Below, one piece after another: positions 1 through 6,894 of a stretch of 6,894 nucleotides of DNA (within the stretch, counting starts at the first letter, position 1; each line of letters begins with the position of its first letter). The stretch is from Candidatus Thorarchaeota archaeon (GTDB lineage: Archaea; Asgardarchaeota; Thorarchaeia; Thorarchaeales; Thorarchaeaceae), in assembly GCA_016839245.1 (NCBI GenBank), contig JAEOUN010000065.1:1-6894 (forward strand). Reading direction: 5' to 3'. Under the pieces are notes generated by a model. It had not been told where the DNA came from and did not search any database. It worked only from the letters and a program-made list of their open reading frames with translations. A program made the position numbers and the translations under genes.

Positions 1-84
1 GCATTGGTTCTTGTTGTATTCTGCGTAATCGCCTTCCTTACGATGGAAAAAATATCTGAGGGGAGTACTGGAGGTGCACTATGA
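1..84 (+). CDS. C-terminal end of a membrane protein, probably ABC transporter permease (5'-partial)
   Basis: Frame 1 is open from the window edge to a TGA at 82-84 and gives 27 residues. The first part (ALVLVVFCVIAFLTME) is a hydrophobic segment that could be a last transmembrane helix, followed by a short polar tail (KISEGSTGGAL). The stop overlaps the start of the ABC ATPase gene in an ATGA (81-84). Binding-protein-dependent permeases commonly end in such a helix and are commonly encoded directly before their ATPase. The permease call rests on this position and on the hydrophobic end only, because no EAA loop or other family motif lies inside the window. Confidence 0.6.
   Translation, partial: ALVLVVFCVIAFLTMEKISEGSTGGAL
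70..76 (+). promoter_or_regulatory. Ribosome binding site of the ABC ATPase gene
   Basis: GGAGGTG is a near-perfect complement of the archaeal 16S rRNA 3' end. It lies inside the last codons of the upstream gene, 4 nt before the ATG at 81 and 7 nt before the ATG at 84. The spacing slightly favours the second ATG as the true start. Its strength fits translational coupling or re-initiation between the two genes. Confidence 0.7.
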
Positions 85-1145
85 TGGTTAGTGTTGAACT
101 TAGAGGAATAATAAGAGAGTTCCCAGATGGAACAAGAATTGGTCCAATAAATCTCAAGGTTAGAGATGGTGAATTGCTTACTCTATTGGGCCCAAGTGGA
201 TCTGGAAAGACAACAACACTCAGAATGATTGCAGGATTCATTGATTCAGATGCAGGAGAATTATTGTTTGATGGTGTTGACATATTGAATGTACCACCCA
301 GGGAGAGAGATATTGGAATGGTCTTTCAATCAGTTGCCCTCTTTCCAAATATGACTGTCTATCAAAATATTGCGTTTGGACCAGAGATGGCAGAATGGAC
401 TCATGATAAGACAGTAGAGAGAGTGGAAGAGCTCGCGAATTTGTTAGGTATTCGAAACTTACTATTCAGGAAAATCGATGAAATAAGTGGAGGAGAAGCA
501 CAACGAGTAGGATTGGCTAGAGCATTGGCGAAGGAACCAAAACTTCTCCTTCTAGATGAGCCACTCTCAGCTTTAGATCCTCAACTCAGAGAGAGACTTC
601 AGATGGAGATAAGGAGAGTTCAACAAAAACTTGGAGTTACAACAATATATGTGACTCACAGTCAGGATGAAGCTTTCGCAATATCAGATCGAGTTGCTAT
701 AATCGACGATGGTAAAATATTACAAGTTGGAACACCAGAGGAACTCTATGACTCGCCTGCGAATGAATTTGTTGCCAGATTCTTGGGTAGTGGCAACATA
801 TTTTCCGGTGTTGTGGAAGATATAAAAAATGATCTTCTGGTGGTTAGGATTCATCAAAATGAATTCTTAATTAATGGAAGCAGTGCTGTGGGTAAAACAA
901 TAAAATTTGCTGTAAAACCAGAGGACATCTCTCTTGTAAAACAAGGAACCAAGGATTCAATTGAAGGAGAGATACTCTCCATTACACCATTAGTGGGACT
1001 CTTCAAGATTGGTATTGCCCTAAATGGCGAAACAGTTTATGCAATAACACAAGATGAATTAGTTGTCAAGAAACTTCGAGATGAAAAAATGAGACGAATT
1101 TCATTCATCTTCCACCCAAGTGCTGCTATCATCATTCCTGATTGA
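81..1145 (+). CDS. ABC transporter ATP-binding protein with C-terminal TOBE-type domain (importer)
   Basis: This is the cytoplasmic ATPase of a binding-protein-dependent importer. Residues 1-235 form the nucleotide-binding domain: Walker A GPSGSGKT (37-44), Q-loop glutamine 83 in VFQSVALFPN, signature SGGEAQR (136-142), Walker B LLLLDEP (155-161), D-loop SALD (163-166) and H-loop histidine 193 in THSQDEA. Residues from about 238 to 353 are a beta-rich TOBE-like region, which is usual in the polyamine, iron, sulfate, molybdate/tungstate and sugar importer ATPases. The 354-residue length is normal for that group. The substrate cannot be decided here, since the binding protein and most of the permease are outside the window. 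The start is ATG 81 or ATG 84, and the 4-nt ATGA overlap with the upstream gene points to one operon. The last 45 nt overlap the opposite-strand gene at 1101-2153. The final residues look like a normal strand-forming TOBE end, so nothing suggests a frameshift. Confidence 0.93.
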   Translation: MMVSVELRGIIREFPDGTRIGPINLKVRDGELLTLLGPSGSGKTTTLRMIAGFIDSDAGELLFDGVDILNVPPRERDIGMVFQSVALFPNMTVYQNIAFGPEMAEWTHDKTVERVEELANLLGIRNLLFRKIDEISGGEAQRVGLARALAKEPKLLLLDEPLSALDPQLRERLQMEIRRVQQKLGVTTIYVTHSQDEAFAISDRVAIIDDGKILQVGTPEELYDSPANEFVARFLGSGNIFSGVVEDIKNDLLVVRIHQNEFLINGSSAVGKTIKFAVKPEDISLVKQGTKDSIEGEILSITPLVGLFKIGIALNGETVYAITQDELVVKKLRDEKMRRISFIFHPSAAIIIPD

Positions 1146-2153
1146 TTCTTCAGCAAGTCCTATTTCTGATGAAGTATCAAGAGAAGAATCAGTTTCTGTT
1201 AGTGAATCATCTTCAAATTCTGAAGCAGTTAGAATCTGACGCTCTAATAATGATAGAAGTCTACTTCGAATATAATCTGCTGATGTAATCATATCAGGAA
1301 CTTCATACTTGCTATTGAGAATATACATCAAAGACGCTGTAGCCCTACCTTTGAAAGCCATAAAGATGAAGGTAAAAGTTAGTACAATTGAAAATAATGG
1401 ACCAAGTGGAACAAGAATTACAAAAATCGAGATCCAAGGTGCTTCAAAACCCGTCGTTAAAGTAAGCTCAACCCACACTAAGATAATATCAACTCCAGCA
1501 AAGAATTCAAGTATGTCTTCAAGGTCGTCACCAACATTACTCATAGATCTATCACGTTCATCAAGATGAAAGAGTCCAGCATCTTTGATTAACCATGGTC
1601 CATAATAGAGGACCAGAATTGTGATTGGTAACAAGATTACACTAGCCCACATTATTGTGGTTCCAAATCCAACAATATCCCAAGTAGCTACGTTACCCAT
1701 TAAATCGAAACTTATCAGAGTGAGAGCAATTCCAACAACGAGGACGGATCCATAAAGAGACCTTCTCAAAATAGTCGTATAAGACTGATCAACGGGTTCA
1801 GGACTAAGAAAATACTCACCAGTACCACGCTTGGCGATACTATGTAATTTGAGAGGAAGTCCAACAGATGATGGAAATCGCACCATTATGAAGCAAATGA
1901 TAAGAGCTACAACAATGGTTAACAATGAGGCTGCCAACATCCATAGTGTATAAGAGATGTATTTTGTGGGTAGGACAATCCATACACCTGAAGCATTAAG
2001 AACGTACAACAGACCCCACGTAGAAGCAATCATAATCAAGGTGGAGCCCAAGAGACCCAGAATTATTTGAAACACACTCAAAGTCGCCATTTGATTAGAT
2101 TCATGAGTATACGAACGTACAAGTCTGGACTTTCCTTTCATCACAATTACCAA
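1101..2153 (-). CDS. Uncharacterised multi-pass membrane protein with acidic serine-rich C-terminal tail
   Basis: I do not recognise the family. With the longest start (TTG at 2153) the protein has 350 residues. Hydrophobic stretches likely to be membrane helices lie at about 25-53, 64-92, 132-152, 162-186 and 240-267, with a weaker one near 220-235. Between them are charged loops, for example 187-218 (LDERDRSMSNVGDDLEDILE). After the last helix comes a probably helical segment (268-312), then a tail of about 38 residues dominated by Glu, Asp, Ser and Thr (313-350). The start is uncertain: TTG 2153, ATG 2141 (residue 5) and ATG 2090 (residue 22) are all in frame and none has a good Shine-Dalgarno; ATG 2141 is the most plausible. 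The gene is divergent from the gelsolin-like gene and converges on the ABC ATPase gene with a 45-nt overlap of coding ends. No catalytic or transport motif was seen. Confidence 0.85.
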   Translation of the reverse strand: MVIVMKGKSRLVRSYTHESNQMATLSVFQIILGLLGSTLIMIASTWGLLYVLNASGVWIVLPTKYISYTLWMLAASLLTIVVALIICFIMVRFPSSVGLPLKLHSIAKRGTGEYFLSPEPVDQSYTTILRRSLYGSVLVVGIALTLISFDLMGNVATWDIVGFGTTIMWASVILLPITILVLYYGPWLIKDAGLFHLDERDRSMSNVGDDLEDILEFFAGVDIILVWVELTLTTGFEAPWISIFVILVPLGPLFSIVLTFTFIFMAFKGRATASLMYILNSKYEVPDMITSADYIRSRLLSLLERQILTASEFEDDSLTETDSSLDTSSEIGLAEESIRNDDSSTWVEDE

Positions 2154-2349: not shown

Positions 2350-3270
2350 ATGGTGATAGGGTACGAGGTTCAAGAAGATGGAACCTTGAATGAGATAGAA
2401 TTATCCAAAGAAGACCTTCGATCAGATCTTGTCGTCTGTGTCGTAGATGACGAAACAAAGAGCATCTATCTCTGGAAAGGGAGTCAAGCAGGAGTACGTG
2501 TGAAGTTTATCGGTGCAAGAGTCGCAACTAATCTAAGGACTGAATATGGTTTTCATTTCAAAGTACGACCACTTGATGAGGGAGAGGAACCACCAACATT
2601 CTTTACAGCCTTAAACGGTTCCACAGCCGCAAGTCGAATTATGAAACCTGGAGACAAAGCACCACCACCAGTTCCGCCAAAGCCAAAGAAAGAACCAGAG
2701 GTTGCACCAGTTATTACACAGTCATCAACTCCAACTACAACAGAACCAACCATAATGTCATCTCCTTCAACTATATCAACACCTCCACCTAAGCCACCAA
2801 TTAGTACTCCTTCAACTCGTCCTGCAGCTCATTCAACAACTCCTGTTTCTCGAGCACCTAGTGGAGAGATTGAAGAAATGATTAAAGAACTTGAGAATAT
2901 GGATCCACCGGAGGGATATCAGAGAGAGCTCGTGATTGTCTATAACGACTTATACACAGTTGCTGAACATAGAACAGCAGTCTTTGGCCAAGAAAAAATT
3001 GAAAGAAGAATTGAAAAGGTCAAAGATCCACCAGAAGGAACCTTCATGGCAGAAGGATTTATCCCACGCGTCATTGTGAAAGACAGACGAGTGATTGGAA
3101 TTGAACTTCTAAAAGGAACACCGGATGCCATATTGAGCCCAATTAAGGCAGAGATGAAAGAACGTCTTAGTGACCTGATTACCTTCTTCAAATCAGAAAC
3201 TGAAGAGGGTAAAGCAGCAGACGCGAAGAAAGAAACAGGAAAGAAAGGCAAGAAGCTAGTTGCCAAGTAG
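2350..3270 (+). CDS. Gelsolin-like domain protein with proline-rich linker and novel C-terminal domain
   Basis: The 306-residue protein has four visible parts. Residues about 20-90 resemble a single gelsolin/villin-type repeat: a strand ending in a possible Asp-rich site (DLVVCVVDDETKS, 26-38), the hallmark IYLWKG (39-44), a basic helix (50-64), a strand (69-73) and the family-like ending GEEPPTFFTAL (78-88). Residues 95-172 are a disordered Pro/Ser/Thr linker including APPPVPPKPK and STPPPKPP. Residues about 173-282 form a predicted folded domain I do not recognise, rich in alternating strands (RELVIVYND, RVIVKDRRVIGIELLKG), with the pentapeptide DPPEG at 185-189 and 226-230. Residues 283-306 are a lysine-rich tail. 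Gelsolin-fold proteins in Asgard archaea are known to bind or remodel actin-like filaments; that role is inferred here from a motif-level resemblance. The start ATG 2350 has only a weak SD (AGTGAT, 2339-2344). The Roadblock gene follows after 35 nt, suggesting one transcript. Confidence 0.8.
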   Translation: MVIGYEVQEDGTLNEIELSKEDLRSDLVVCVVDDETKSIYLWKGSQAGVRVKFIGARVATNLRTEYGFHFKVRPLDEGEEPPTFFTALNGSTAASRIMKPGDKAPPPVPPKPKKEPEVAPVITQSSTPTTTEPTIMSSPSTISTPPPKPPISTPSTRPAAHSTTPVSRAPSGEIEEMIKELENMDPPEGYQRELVIVYNDLYTVAEHRTAVFGQEKIERRIEKVKDPPEGTFMAEGFIPRVIVKDRRVIGIELLKGTPDAILSPIKAEMKERLSDLITFFKSETEEGKAADAKKETGKKGKKLVAK

Positions 3271-3293
3271 CACATTTACATACAACATATATC

Positions 3294-3299
3294 AGGGGA
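3294..3299 (+). promoter_or_regulatory. Ribosome binding site of the Roadblock gene
   Basis: AGGGGA lies 6 nt before the ATG at 3306, in the 35-nt gap after the gelsolin-like gene. It supports this start and independent loading of ribosomes on the second cistron. Confidence 0.6.
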
Positions 3300-3305
3300 A
3301 ATATC

Positions 3306-3692
3306 ATGTCGTCACAATTAGACCCAGCAAAGGAAAAAGAACTAGTTGAGCTTCTCATGGGGCTCACAAATTATGCGGATCTTGATGCCATAGCAGTTGT
3401 CAGTAAACAAGGAGTGAAACTTGCATACTTTGCAACTGAAGATTCTGACGCGGACCCAGATCTTATGGCTGCTGTAAGCGCTGCTCTCCTTATGACTGGA
3501 GACATGGCCGCTGGAAAACTGGGACTTGATGAACTCTATGAAGTAATCGTACGAGGAAAAGACGGCTTTGTCGTTCTTTCTCATGCGGGAGAGTTTCTCC
3601 TCATGGGTTCAGCAAGAGACCTCACATCGATGGGACTAGCTATAACTCAGATGAGAAAATATGCTCGTGAGGTAGGCGAACTACTAGGCTAG
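3306..3692 (+). CDS. Roadblock/LC7 (MglB-like) domain protein
   Basis: At 128 residues the protein is a single stand-alone Roadblock/LC7 domain. It has an N-terminal helix (7-21, EKELVELLMGL), the characteristic first strands (LDAIAVVSKQGVKLAYF, 26-42), a long central helix (50-73, PDLMAAVSAALLMTGDMAAGKL), strands (78-101, including VVLSHAGEFLLMGSA) and a C-terminal helix (108-127). Family members dimerise and act as regulators or scaffolds of small Ras-like GTPases, as MglB does for MglA in bacteria and as Ragulator and dynein light chains do in eukaryotes. Asgard archaea carry many such proteins. No GTPase gene lies next to it here. Its neighbours are the gelsolin-like gene upstream, probably in the same operon, and the longin-like gene 149 nt downstream. 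No signal peptide or membrane segment is present. The assignment to the superfamily is confident; the partner is unknown. Confidence 0.88.
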   Translation: MSSQLDPAKEKELVELLMGLTNYADLDAIAVVSKQGVKLAYFATEDSDADPDLMAAVSAALLMTGDMAAGKLGLDELYEVIVRGKDGFVVLSHAGEFLLMGSARDLTSMGLAITQMRKYAREVGELLG

Positions 3693-3841: not shown

Positions 3842-4255
3842 GTGGTTATCAATGAGATGAAGGGCATTATAGTCTTCGACGAATCTGGCATTAATAGAGC
3901 TTCTGTCGGATTGGACAATATCGTGGTCGATCCCGACCTCTTTAGTTCATTTATCTCAGCGATACAGGCGTATGCAAAGAGATCTGTTGGTAGTGAAATG
4001 AAAGAAGTAACCTACAGCAAGGTTCGGCTTTTAATTGGTCGTGCGGGACCGTATCACGTTGTTACGCTTCATACTATAGATGATGAGGATGCAAAGTGGA
4101 ATCACAGCGCTACACTAAACGTTTTGGATACTGAGGACTACATGCTCGATAATGAACATCTACGAATTTTGCAGCAACTTCTTACTGACGAGATTCTCTC
4201 ACCTGATGAAGTTGAAACAGGTATAGACACACTGACTTCTATCACTGATGACTAA
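3842..4255 (+). CDS. Small longin-like (or Roadblock-like) alpha/beta protein
   Basis: With the GTG start at 3842 the protein has 137 residues, but ATG 3857 (residue 6) gives MKGIIVFDESGI, a more natural beginning in which the first strand follows the initiator. A GGTTATC 6 nt before that ATG resembles the GGTGATC anti-SD complement. The order of elements is strand (7-13), strand (20-29), amphipathic helix (31-49, PDLFSSFISAIQAYAKRSV), strands (53-66 and 71-79), then an acidic helical C-terminal half (96-137). This beta-beta-alpha-beta-beta order fits longin domains, which in eukaryotes act in vesicle trafficking and as GEF or GTPase partners and are abundant in Asgard archaea. The fold is inferred by eye with no signature residue to prove it. 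The same-strand Roadblock gene ends 149 nt upstream, and the opposite-strand gene ends 5 nt away. Confidence 0.75.
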   Translation: MVINEMKGIIVFDESGINRASVGLDNIVVDPDLFSSFISAIQAYAKRSVGSEMKEVTYSKVRLLIGRAGPYHVVTLHTIDDEDAKWNHSATLNVLDTEDYMLDNEHLRILQQLLTDEILSPDEVETGIDTLTSITDD

Positions 4256-4260
4256 GTCTA

Positions 4261-5349
4261 TTATGACTTATTTCCTAGTTGTTTGAATGTAACAATTTCA
4301 TGAAGTGTATTTCCATCTTCCTTGTCACTTTTGCCGCCAATATCGACTGTTAACTTGAAGTTTGAATCTAACCGAAAGTATCCAGGTTTTATTCTAAGGA
4401 TATATTTGGCAATGATTCGAAGAGGTGCAGAAAATGCACTGAGCATATCTTCAGCCTCAAGAACACGATGAACATCAAGTCTCGCAGTTAATACGTTAGG
4501 AGCATTAATCATGATTGTTCTTGGAAAGCTATGTCCTGCCGAGGAACTATATTCGAAGTCCTCTTGACTAAAGTCATATTCTCCAGTACTTAAGATCACA
4601 TCTTTTCCTTTTGCAGCCATTAGAACTTTTACCACATGATGGTCTACCTTTTCATTACACTGGATAAAAGCGTATGAGATAGTAAAGGTCTTAGAATAGA
4701 TTCGACCCCACATCCAATACTCAATAATGCTTGAAAATGAAAAATTCAACCAATTATGGTCATGATATCCTACTCCAGAGACCTCTATTATTGTATCGTC
4801 ATCTCTCACAGTCCCACTTACTGAGGCCTTTGCGAAGGGGATAACCCATGCAAAGTATCCTAGATCAGCAAAATGAGAGAACCCGCTTCCTGGTTTCCAA
4901 CCAACAACCTCACAATGATATACTAAATCAAAACCAAGTTCTCCTTCATCAAGATGTATTCTGTAGGTTGGCAAGTCATCCTGTGAATATTCGACCTCAA
5001 GATAATTCTGACCTATTTTCACATCAGCCTTTTCACGTGATGCATAGAAGTCAGATTTCTTATATTTGACAAAGTGTTGTGTCTTGCGACCATCAGGTCG
5101 CAATAAGACTAATTCAACACCAATTTTTCCAACATCAAGTCCAGGATTTGGATTTGCAGCATAGAAGAAAGCTACCAGAGTATACCCACCATTCAGATGA
5201 GCATCAAAATACCACCACTCAAACTGGTTCTTTTTGCCAACATCAATATGAAGAGCATCATCCTCTGGCGTTATTGGAGTTATGACTCCATCCTTACGTC
5301 CAGGACCATTCCATCCTTCTTTTACATGTGGACTGATAGTATCTGTCAT
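4261..5349 (-). CDS. CrtC/AttH-type lipocalin-like protein (carotenoid 1,2-hydratase superfamily)
   Basis: The 362-residue protein shows the marks of the CrtC/AttH family: EWWYFDA (44-50) opening the first lipocalin-like barrel, an AWVIPFAKASVSGTV strand pair (167-181), the conserved GVGYHDHNW (192-200) and YWMWGRIY (211-218). The family contains hydroxyneurosporene synthase CrtC, which adds water across the 1,2 double bond of acyclic carotenoids, as well as AttH proteins and lipocalin-like pericyclases of natural-product pathways. The sequence does not decide between these. No signal peptide is evident, so the protein is likely cytoplasmic. The start ATG (5347-5349) overlaps the stop of the FAD oxidase gene in an ATGA, and an AAGGAGTG lies 11 nt upstream inside that gene. 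Coupled translation suggests the two proteins act on one pathway. The last codons are 5 nt from the opposing longin-like gene. Confidence 0.82.
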   Translation of the reverse strand: MTDTISPHVKEGWNGPGRKDGVITPITPEDDALHIDVGKKNQFEWWYFDAHLNGGYTLVAFFYAANPNPGLDVGKIGVELVLLRPDGRKTQHFVKYKKSDFYASREKADVKIGQNYLEVEYSQDDLPTYRIHLDEGELGFDLVYHCEVVGWKPGSGFSHFADLGYFAWVIPFAKASVSGTVRDDDTIIEVSGVGYHDHNWLNFSFSSIIEYWMWGRIYSKTFTISYAFIQCNEKVDHHVVKVLMAAKGKDVILSTGEYDFSQEDFEYSSSAGHSFPRTIMINAPNVLTARLDVHRVLEAEDMLSAFSAPLRIIAKYILRIKPGYFRLDSNFKLTVDIGGKSDKEDGNTLHEIVTFKQLGNKS

Positions 5350-6894
5350 TTCTTCTTCTTCACTCCTTTTACATAATGGCTTGGATCTGATAGATCCTTT
5401 GGATCAAACGCAGTCTTGATTTTTCTCAACCAATCTGGATAGTTCATCGTCCTCTCAGCATAGAAATTATGAACCTCATTACCAACAATAAAGAAAGGCA
5501 TTCCTAGAGCCTGGTCAAGATCCAGTTTGTTGCACTCATCCTGATATGCGGCAAAGCCAAGGCAAGACTCTTCGGAGGTTGGATCGTAAACTGTTGGAGT
5601 TTCCATATGAGCCATATGACCAGATTCATAGCTAGTAATCCAGACTCCGAGACCACGGTCATCTCCTATCACGCCTTTATCGATATATTTCTGTTTGACC
5701 GGTTGATTGAGCTGTGCTAATCGAATAGCCATAGCAATAGTATCCATACCTCCATGTGTACTTTGGAAGCAGTTTGAGAATCGAAAAGCATGACCTCCTA
5801 ACATATTACGAACAGTTTCTCCATAGTGCATGGATTTAGGTGTGATTACACCATCTGCTACCAAGTCAGTACCACTATATTTTTCCATGATTAGCTGTAC
5901 GAGTTTGATTCGGAATTCAAATTCACGTTGAGTATGAGCTGCAACAAGAATAACAATGTAGTTTCGGGTAGCAGCTAGGAGGCCTGCAAAGATAGATTCT
6001 ATCGCTTCCATCTTCGTATTTGTGAAAAGTGCCGCTAGGCCCTCAGGAGCGGAAGTAGTTGCAACCATTGTGACTTCTCTATCATTCAACTCATACATGG
6101 CCCCTCGATACTCTTGCCATTCCTCGAAGTTAAGAACAAAAATCTGCCAATAGGGAGGAACATCCCATTCATAGTTAGGAATAGTACCACTTGTCTTCCA
6201 TTTCCATTCTTTTGGAGCTGGCCAAGAGAAGAGGCGGATTGCAGCCTTTGTGAAGACACCGAGTCCACCATAGGCTCCTAACCACCCACGCATGATTCCT
6301 CTCAAGCTAAATCCAGGACCATCCCCAGTGAACCATTTTCCATTATGATCATATGAACCAAGTCTGAGTATCTCGCCAGTTGGAAGAACCCATTCAACAC
6401 CCAGAACGTTTCTTCCACTGAATCCTGTATAAGGAGAAGTAAAGCCAGGTCCAACAAAGGAAGTATGGCTGGCAAGAGGAGATGTCTGCGGTCCAGCTCC
6501 TTGAGCGTGATGCATCAAACCGTATTGGAAAAGCTCACATTGTAACTGAGCATTGGTGACATATGGCTCAATGACCACATACATATTCTTTTCATCAACT
6601 TCAATAATCCGATTCATACGACGTAGATCAATCTGGATTGCTCGGGGATTGCTTAATCCAGCCCATGGACCCATTCCTGTCGAGATTGCTTTGAAACCAA
6701 CATTGTATTCATTGCAGATCTTGACAATAGTCTGCACTTGCTCAGTGGATTCGGGTAGTACAACACAAAGGGGTCGTACACCAAACCTCTGAGGTTCCTC
6801 TCCTCGTTGAGCGCTTTCAATCTCATTACACCATTGGAATGCATAGGAGTCCATTATTGCAGGATCTTGAGAAATATATCGTTCTCCAACAACA
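5346..6894 (-). CDS. FAD-linked oxidase, VAO/GlcD-type flavoprotein (5'-partial)
   Basis: This is a flavoprotein with a PCMH-type FAD-binding domain. Counting from the internal Met at 6854: RPLCVVLPESTEQVQTIVKI (27-46) is the typical opening helix of the domain, AISTGMGPWAGLSNP (57-70) the pyrophosphate-binding loop region, IQIDLRRMNRIIEVDEKNMY (73-92) the strands that follow, GFSGRNVLGVEWVLPTGEI (144-162) the second FAD-contact segment, and RGWLGAYGGLGVFTKAAIRL (189-208) the equivalent of the GSEGTLG stretch of GlcD-like enzymes. The remainder, about 290 residues, is the substrate/cap region, which I cannot assign to a substrate. The ATG at 6854 is probably not the start: the frame stays open to the window edge and adds VVGERYISQDPAI, which looks like the normal N-terminus of this family. 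The protein ends with a lysine run (KGVKKKK). It is upstream of and overlaps the CrtC-like gene. It probably oxidises an alcohol or similar group on the same substrate. Confidence 0.88.
   Translation of the reverse strand, partial: VVGERYISQDPAIMDSYAFQWCNEIESAQRGEEPQRFGVRPLCVVLPESTEQVQTIVKICNEYNVGFKAISTGMGPWAGLSNPRAIQIDLRRMNRIIEVDEKNMYVVIEPYVTNAQLQCELFQYGLMHHAQGAGPQTSPLASHTSFVGPGFTSPYTGFSGRNVLGVEWVLPTGEILRLGSYDHNGKWFTGDGPGFSLRGIMRGWLGAYGGLGVFTKAAIRLFSWPAPKEWKWKTSGTIPNYEWDVPPYWQIFVLNFEEWQEYRGAMYELNDREVTMVATTSAPEGLAALFTNTKMEAIESIFAGLLAATRNYIVILVAAHTQREFEFRIKLVQLIMEKYSGTDLVADGVITPKSMHYGETVRNMLGGHAFRFSNCFQSTHGGMDTIAMAIRLAQLNQPVKQKYIDKGVIGDDRGLGVWITSYESGHMAHMETPTVYDPTSEESCLGFAAYQDECNKLDLDQALGMPFFIVGNEVHNFYAERTMNYPDWLRKIKTAFDPKDLSDPSHYVKGVKKKK
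5361..5368 (-). promoter_or_regulatory. Ribosome binding site of the CrtC-like gene
   Basis: The minus strand reads AAGGAGTG, 11 nt before the ATG at 5349 and inside the 3' end of the FAD oxidase gene. It confirms the ATGA-overlapping start and supports translational coupling. Confidence 0.55.

Follow-up and report, generated by a model that had tools for sequence, protein, structure and literature searches.

The systems closest to the locus analysed here are the gelsolin-type proteins of Asgard archaea. According to passages of one study, ProGel is a single-domain protein, and 2DGels carry two repeats with conserved calcium-site residues (PMC9433394). The same passages list a further type, 1DGelX, apart from ProGel and 2DGel, a name and listing that fit one gelsolin domain plus X. 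These proteins are only counted there: for Loki MK-D1 the numbers are 'two ProGels and two 1DGelXs', for GC14_75 'four ProGels and three 1DGelXs'. This source (2022) is the only one in the literature searched that uses the term. Gelsolin, Roadblock and small GTP-binding genes are among the 500 most expressed in MK-D1, according to a passage of PMC7015854. The two Asgard Roadblock proteins (RBs) that passages of PMC10933270 describe as solved are homodimers. A gelsolin fold is also found in Sec23 of the COPII coat, which works with a small GTPase and contains in addition zinc-finger, trunk, beta-barrel and helical domains (passages of PMC6775307).

A single-gelsolin protein with an X domain

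The window, i.e. the whole stretch of 6,894 nucleotides that was analysed, encodes a protein of the 1DGelX type followed on the same strand by a Roadblock/LC7 protein (Table 1). Fold searches and alignment with a full-length AF2 model of the first protein gave ThorProGel in complex with actin as the structure nearest to its gelsolin domain. The protein has the gelsolin fold, as the initial annotation had proposed from a putative gelsolin repeat, and that claim therefore survives the structure prediction by which it was to be checked. The WxG signature corresponds to W42 and G44, and the tryptophan and glycine are present in 154/166 and 164/166, respectively, of the aligned proteins combining a gelsolin domain with X (GEL-X). 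Pfam PF00626 gave no match in the window protein at E<=1 and none in the relative L082 at E<=0.1; among other relatives it reached 22.1 bits in L064 (cut-off 21) and 19 bits, below the cut-off, in L102.

Table 1. Position and strand of the features of the window.
Feature	Position	Strand	Remarks
ABC ATPase gene	81-1145	+	upstream neighbour
Gene for a 350-aa protein, divergently transcribed	1101-2153	-	no Pfam match; membrane-bound look
1DGelX-type gene, 306 aa	2350-3270	+	gelsolin domain, proline-rich linker, X domain, basic tail
Gelsolin/ADF-type domain, residues 1-90	2350-2619	+	
PPPVPP linker motif (PPPxPP, profilin-ligand-like)	2662-2679	+	PPPxPP in 97/101 Thor-type linkers parsed
PPPKPP, second linker motif	2782-2799	+	sequence
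X domain, residues 171-290	2860-3219	+	helix, five strands, long helix (AF2 model)
Basic C-terminal tail ending KKLVAK	3247-3267	+	conserved
35-nt intergenic stretch between 1DGelX-type and Roadblock genes	3271-3305	+	sequence
Roadblock/LC7 gene, 128 aa, gelsolin-linked Roadblock subfamily	3306-3692	+	Pfam, clade, adjacency
ORF3, possible third member	3857-4255	+	ATG 3857, from comparison with relatives, more likely than GTG 3842, where the listed ORF starts
CrtC-like gene	4261-5349	-	Pfam 22.2 bits, just below the 22.5 cut-off
FAD-binding protein gene	5346-6854	-	Pfam

With respect to the Thorarchaeal ProGel (PDB 7c2f, with rabbit actin), the window protein has a linker, X and a tail in addition, about 210 residues. 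Asgard 2DGels (7c2g, 7c2h, 7whf, 7whg) have the gelsolin fold in common with it, and some of them carry C-terminal extensions, but the window family has one repeat and lacks the calcium-site glutamate. This residue lies in the long helix of the calcium-regulated 2DGels and is presumably their type II calcium ligand. V51 of the window protein aligns opposite the 2DGel3 glutamate of the canonical calcium position, and none of 164 GEL-X proteins has a glutamate there (the remaining two of 166 have gaps); the residue is instead K, S, R or another, and in ThorProGel it is likewise K. The absence of this ligand from the aligned sequences points to an actin binding by GEL-X that would be independent of calcium and would need another control input.

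The initial annotation had also described a long proline-rich linker, which holds for the Thorarchaeal proteins (median 27% proline) and less so elsewhere (medians 9-19%). In Thor-type linkers, PPPxPP occurs in 97 of 101 against 10.4 expected from shuffled linkers, and PPPAPP in 59 of 101 against 1.9 expected; the count leaves out 19 of 120 Thor-type proteins, for parse failure or a linker shorter than 40 residues. In the second motif of the window protein, P147 is invariant and P146 and P149 are nearly so in an 18-row alignment of relatives. The enrichment is confined to Thor-type proteins: no excess of PPP/PPxPP was found in linkers outside them, and a profilin-binding polyproline linker as a family-wide trait was rejected, PPP/PPxPP being present in 25/165 linkers, fewer than the 41.6 expected from shuffling. 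For the VASP peptide PPPAPPLPAAQ, passages of PMC8410842 report binding by a Thor profilin, with a KD of 200-500 uM. A PPPAPP protein of the Thor isolate Tekir-14 that appears in the same paper (TFG13563) was not equated with 1DGelX, as the Tekir-14 member of our set, L013, has PPPTPP.

The C-terminal signature [KR]L[VI]AK ends 119 of the 120 relatives listed (the window's own entry included) and none of 154 non-Thor proteins. The near-invariant K(K/R)LVAK tail of Thor 1DGelX could be an actin, membrane or partner peptide.

Database searches with the 306-aa protein returned 308 matches at E<=1e-3; among the 120 listed, the organism names are nearly always Thorarchaeota, and the five best relatives (own entry aside) are 79-87% identical. 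Profile searches for X extended well beyond this group, with matches in 185/227 genomes of the phylum using a Thor-derived profile (E<=1e-3) and in 195/227 using a broader one (E<=1e-10). With the Thor-derived profile, the 37 genomes regarded as Thor (best X E-value <=1e-69) show a single match apiece and the others one to four; the matches called non-Thor are far weaker than 1e-69, the best being 1.5e-31. A gelsolin domain is present in 127/130 non-Thor X ORFs and in 154/160 of a larger locus set, where the six ORFs that lack it include five bordering on a locus end. No true standalone X protein was established in these searches, which yielded a 117-aa relative, P0147, and short proteins of the Thor type, of which several bear the label partial. 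One GEL-X relative, P0163, is filed under the bacterial MAG Candidatus Deferrimicrobium and is probably misbinned.

The combination of gelsolin and X is pan-Asgard. A single gelsolin repeat followed by a linker and an extra domain had initially been called an arrangement not recognised among described Asgard gelsolins; this does not hold, as 1DGelX proteins are counted in Lokiarchaea in passages of PMC9433394. The architecture was probably already known under that name, from which we infer the identity of our X with the published one. Beyond the counts given in those passages, the family is now seen across Asgard genomes with a Roadblock or GTPase neighbour.

A dedicated Roadblock gene downstream

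The second protein of the pair was correctly assigned at the outset: it matches Pfam PF03259 (Robl_LC7) with 43.1 bits against a cut-off of 23 (E 3.6e-11), and it resembles the solved PDB chains 9jue_D (E 1.9e-7) and 7f8m_A (E 4.1e-7) only distantly. It was not identified with the crystallised Thor-RB KXH72322.1, the best PDB match being at E 1.9e-7. What it has in common with Asgard RBs, MglB and LAMTOR2/3 is a score above the Pfam family cut-off; what sets it apart is its membership in a distinct subfamily marked by a gelsolin-X neighbour.

The conservation of the gene pair was surveyed in a Thor-type set of 33 loci from the family scan, of which 29 are titled Thorarchaeota, two 'archaeon' and two 'Lokiarchaeota', the last two encoding proteins with a Thor-type tail. 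A Roadblock gene occupies the next position downstream (+1) on the same strand in all 30 loci with downstream sequence, the first gene meeting a contig end or N gap in the other three, and its product is 83-95% identical to that of the window. The distance from the GEL-X stop to the Roadblock ATG ranges from 13 to 285 nt and is 27-41 nt in 21 of these 30 loci. The Thor loci L034-L063 are outside the pairing counts. The likely operon of the initial annotation, with its 35-nt gap, is supported, and the gene pair is conserved throughout the Thor-type loci that could be scored.

Outside Thor, the same survey comprised the 153 of 160 X ORFs with at least 450 nt of downstream sequence (seven were left out). 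A Roadblock gene was found at +1 in 69 of them (66 on the same strand, 3 convergent), and neither a Roadblock nor a Ras-family GTPase in 59, so that conservation of the pair, whose lack would have counted against the initial proposal, extends to other Asgard lineages. The 69 include L117, L183 and L213, in which a same-strand Roadblock lies 17-74 nt downstream under an antisense ORF; five further loci (L094, L154, L155, L157 and L212) have a Roadblock-type ORF at a position other than +1. At +1 of 153 loci, chance would place roughly one Roadblock and two GTPases, given a background of 6-16 Roadblock and 20-74 Ras matches per genome (counted in 12 and 10 genomes, respectively) and about 0.85 genes per kb, a density taken from Loki-B35 (6.04 Mb, 5,119 proteins; passages of PMC9834061); loci of one clade are non-independent. 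At -1, no Roadblock was present in the 122 testable loci of an earlier non-Thor set. Five paired loci show a 2-nt gap between the genes, which suggests coupled translation.

In a GEL-X tree of 166 proteins (FastTree), the Roadblock label requires 10 changes against a mean of 53 for shuffled labels, 7 of them forced by starred branches; the tree raised long-branch warnings, and three paired rows (L117, L183, L213) were labelled unpaired. Pairing is spread across the tree, in Thor and in several separate clades, and paired Roadblocks that are only 32-44% identical to that of the window are still adjacent to GEL-X. The neighbours at +2 and farther vary by lineage, for instance an NAD(P)HX dehydratase (Pfam), a chaperonin or an aminotransferase (the last two named by eye).

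Genomes carry about 12 Roadblock paralogues each, and the gelsolin-linked ones form a subfamily of their own. A quick tree of 75 rows and 85 columns, with many forks unresolved, was built from the full complement of 60 Roadblock matches in five genomes, of which 5 are adjacent to GEL-X, and from 15 further adjacent ones chosen among the paired loci. The comparison was with 55 other Roadblocks, and all 20 adjacent ones grouped within a single starred set of 21 rows; the single non-adjacent row of the set belongs to G091, in which X is matched four times (E<=1e-10). With a profile of this subfamily, all 26 genomes tried gave a match (E<=7e-28), 23 of which had been picked for having the examined GEL-X copy unpaired; in these 23 the Roadblock relative is mostly located elsewhere. 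In G074 and G075 (best match) and in G059 (second-best), a subfamily Roadblock is found immediately after a further X match, the one in G059 being weak (E 3e-8). The simplest history is an ancestral GEL-X/Roadblock pair that was often broken while the partner was kept.

No report of this neighbourhood was found in the literature searched, supplements and most subscription papers being beyond reach. Passages of PMC11291895, PMC8813620, PMC10989744, PMC7015854 and PMC10846614 mention the families without the pairing, which was likewise not met in passages of PMC9433394, PMC10933270, PMC9834061 and PMC12993045. What is new is that GEL-X is paired across Asgard archaea with one dedicated Roadblock subfamily and, in other places, with GTPases.

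A third gene, ORF3, was detected after the Roadblock in the window and in 11 of the 30 paired Thor-type loci (L001, L002, L003, L005, L006, L008, L009, L011, L012, L017 and L025); several others end soon after the Roadblock. It had no PDB match. A comparison with a Roadblock alignment (hhalign) gave a probability of 28% over 37 columns, and the weak Pfam matches MAPKK1_Int (E 0.076) and Robl_LC7 (E 0.13) were each seen in one of 11 members, the lowest E-value (0.0039) being that of the unrelated MsrA_helical. From these faint similarities ORF3 is perhaps roadblock/longin-like. Upstream, the ABC ATPase is present in 30/33 Thor-type loci and the divergent 350-aa protein in 19/33. The CrtC-like and FAD-binding genes overlap by 4 nt and probably form an unrelated operon. 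Scans for bacterial-type signals, uninformative for archaea, gave 5 promoters against 4.6 in shuffles, and 5 terminators against 1.4, but inside genes.

Ras-family GTPases and other neighbours

In other Asgard clades, the slot taken by Roadblock is occupied by a Ras-family GTPase, which strengthens the initial idea of a GTPase link. Such a gene is at +1 in 25/153 non-Thor loci (19 on the same strand, 6 convergent), for example in L165 (E 1e-47) and L180 (E 3e-53), and the clades of the GEL-X tree that have it lack a Roadblock at +1. The Ras label requires 3 changes, the GTPase neighbours being confined to a few clades. One comprises 11 tree rows, each with a second, P-loop GTPase-like gene at +2; another lies in the G059-G067 group; the third is a paralogue found in G019-G042, mostly in convergent orientation.

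In L164-L168 and L199-L205, GEL-X is followed on the same strand by a Ras-family GTPase and then by a P-loop GTPase-like protein of ~250-270 aa (in L165 with a Pfam Arf match, E 1e-5; in L200 the X ORF is truncated), a possible three-gene operon. In G046, G054, G059 and G064 the GTPase adjacent to GEL-X is the genome's best or second-best listed Pfam Ras match. A Ras-family GTPase of ~560 aa is also encoded on the same strand at position -2 relative to the GEL-X/Roadblock pair in L064 (1949-3634) and L068.

Two other kinds of neighbour recur. A protein of ~650-810 aa is encoded at +2 on the same strand in 37 of the 66 non-Thor Roadblock-paired loci other than L117, L183 and L213 (e.g. L086:6680-8845, L093 and L097), and a VWA domain was found in 3/4 of those scanned. 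In one clade (L169, L173, L174, L176, L177, L206-L209 and L211), the gene after GEL-X encodes 93-98 aa, and the products of L169, L174 and L177 end in ISHGG, which we take to resemble a ubiquitin-like/MoaD-type beta-grasp protein; Pfam gave no match in that of L169.

A putative actin-control module

We propose that the two genes of the window encode a two-protein module for actin control, and consider about evenly balanced the chances that GEL-X is a calcium-independent actin binder whose dedicated Roadblock partner feeds small-GTPase signals to actin. The single gelsolin domain would bind actin as Thorarchaeal ProGel does, and a flexible linker, with its profilin-ligand-like PPPxPP in Thor, would join it to X. 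X, alone or together with the linker and the tail, would dock the Roadblock paralogue encoded by the next gene, most likely as a homodimer, and this dimer would bridge the gelsolin domain and a small GTPase. Nucleotide state or membrane location, and not calcium, would then set where the gelsolin domain acts on filaments. The actin binding, the contacts of Roadblock with X and with the GTPase, and the direction of control are what we infer; that the control input would be Roadblock/GTPase is suggested by the fixed Roadblock partner and by the GTPases in the same slot elsewhere.

Several observations count against such a module: the farther neighbours vary, few clades have the Ras-family gene, PPP/PPxPP is not enriched family-wide, and adjacency is not obligatory, since 59/153 non-Thor loci have neither gene and the Roadblock of unpaired genomes is mostly elsewhere. 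In another reading, which we find possible, if rather doubtful, the genes are co-transcribed because the cell needs cytoskeletal proteins and GTPase regulators together, their products make no contact, and the Roadblock acts on a GTPase that has no link with actin. Roadblock and GTPase genes in the same position could then merely mark a shared regulon, and a Roadblock of the same subfamily is indeed present where the examined GEL-X copy is unpaired. However, of the dozen or so Roadblock paralogues in each genome, it is those of one clade that are paired across diverged lineages while other neighbours change, and such selective pairing usually reflects physical or obligate functional contact. 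Chance retention of an inherited, functionless pair appears very improbable and is disfavoured: loci of one clade are non-independent and the Roadblock label changes only 10 times (with uncorrected labels, three rows being mislabelled), yet the pairing persists down to 32-44% Roadblock identity to the window's despite neighbour turnover, and GTPases recur in the slot.

Alternatively, the gelsolin domain might serve to bind proteins within a membrane or trafficking assembly that is controlled by a GTPase, with no action on actin. Eukaryotic Sec23, the GAP of Sar1, binds PPP motifs by its gelsolin domain (passages of PMC7594496 and PMC6775307), Roadblock and GTPase neighbours would suit trafficking, and so would the large +2 proteins of many non-Thor pairs, although VWA is a common domain. 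The structure nearest to the window protein is nevertheless actin-bound ThorProGel, and Sec23 is not among the 50 matches listed by either fold search, which is no proof of its absence. Pfam families of the Sec23 zinc-finger, trunk, beta-barrel and helical domains gave no match in the window protein at E<=1, a search in which Pfam misses its gelsolin domain too. We consider this second reading unlikely; it and the one without contact stand beside the actin-control module.

A bolder form of the actin-control module is an ancestral switch of small GTPase, Roadblock and gelsolin, encoded as one gene module ever since an early ancestor of the Asgard archaea and controlling actin by nucleotide state rather than calcium. 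In Thor, by analogy with VASP and formins, such a switch may also gather profilin-actin via the PPPxPP linker. We put this form forward tentatively, as more doubtful than probable; if true, the control of the actin cytoskeleton by Rho/Rac-type GTPases would have a precedent in prokaryotes.

Asgard archaea have many Roadblock and GTPase proteins, and matching GTPases to regulators by genome layout is difficult because operons are not generally shared (passages of PMC10933270). The GEL-X/Roadblock pair is an exception resolved by gene order, linking one Roadblock subfamily to one gelsolin protein and, in other clades, to a GTPase, and the proteins of the pair and the GTPase are small enough for expression and testing. 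If the module is borne out, GTPase-controlled actin would predate eukaryotes. Asgard archaea are relatives of the ancestors of complex cells, and the pairing in many of their lineages suggests that switches like those governing our own cytoskeleton may be older than complex cells.
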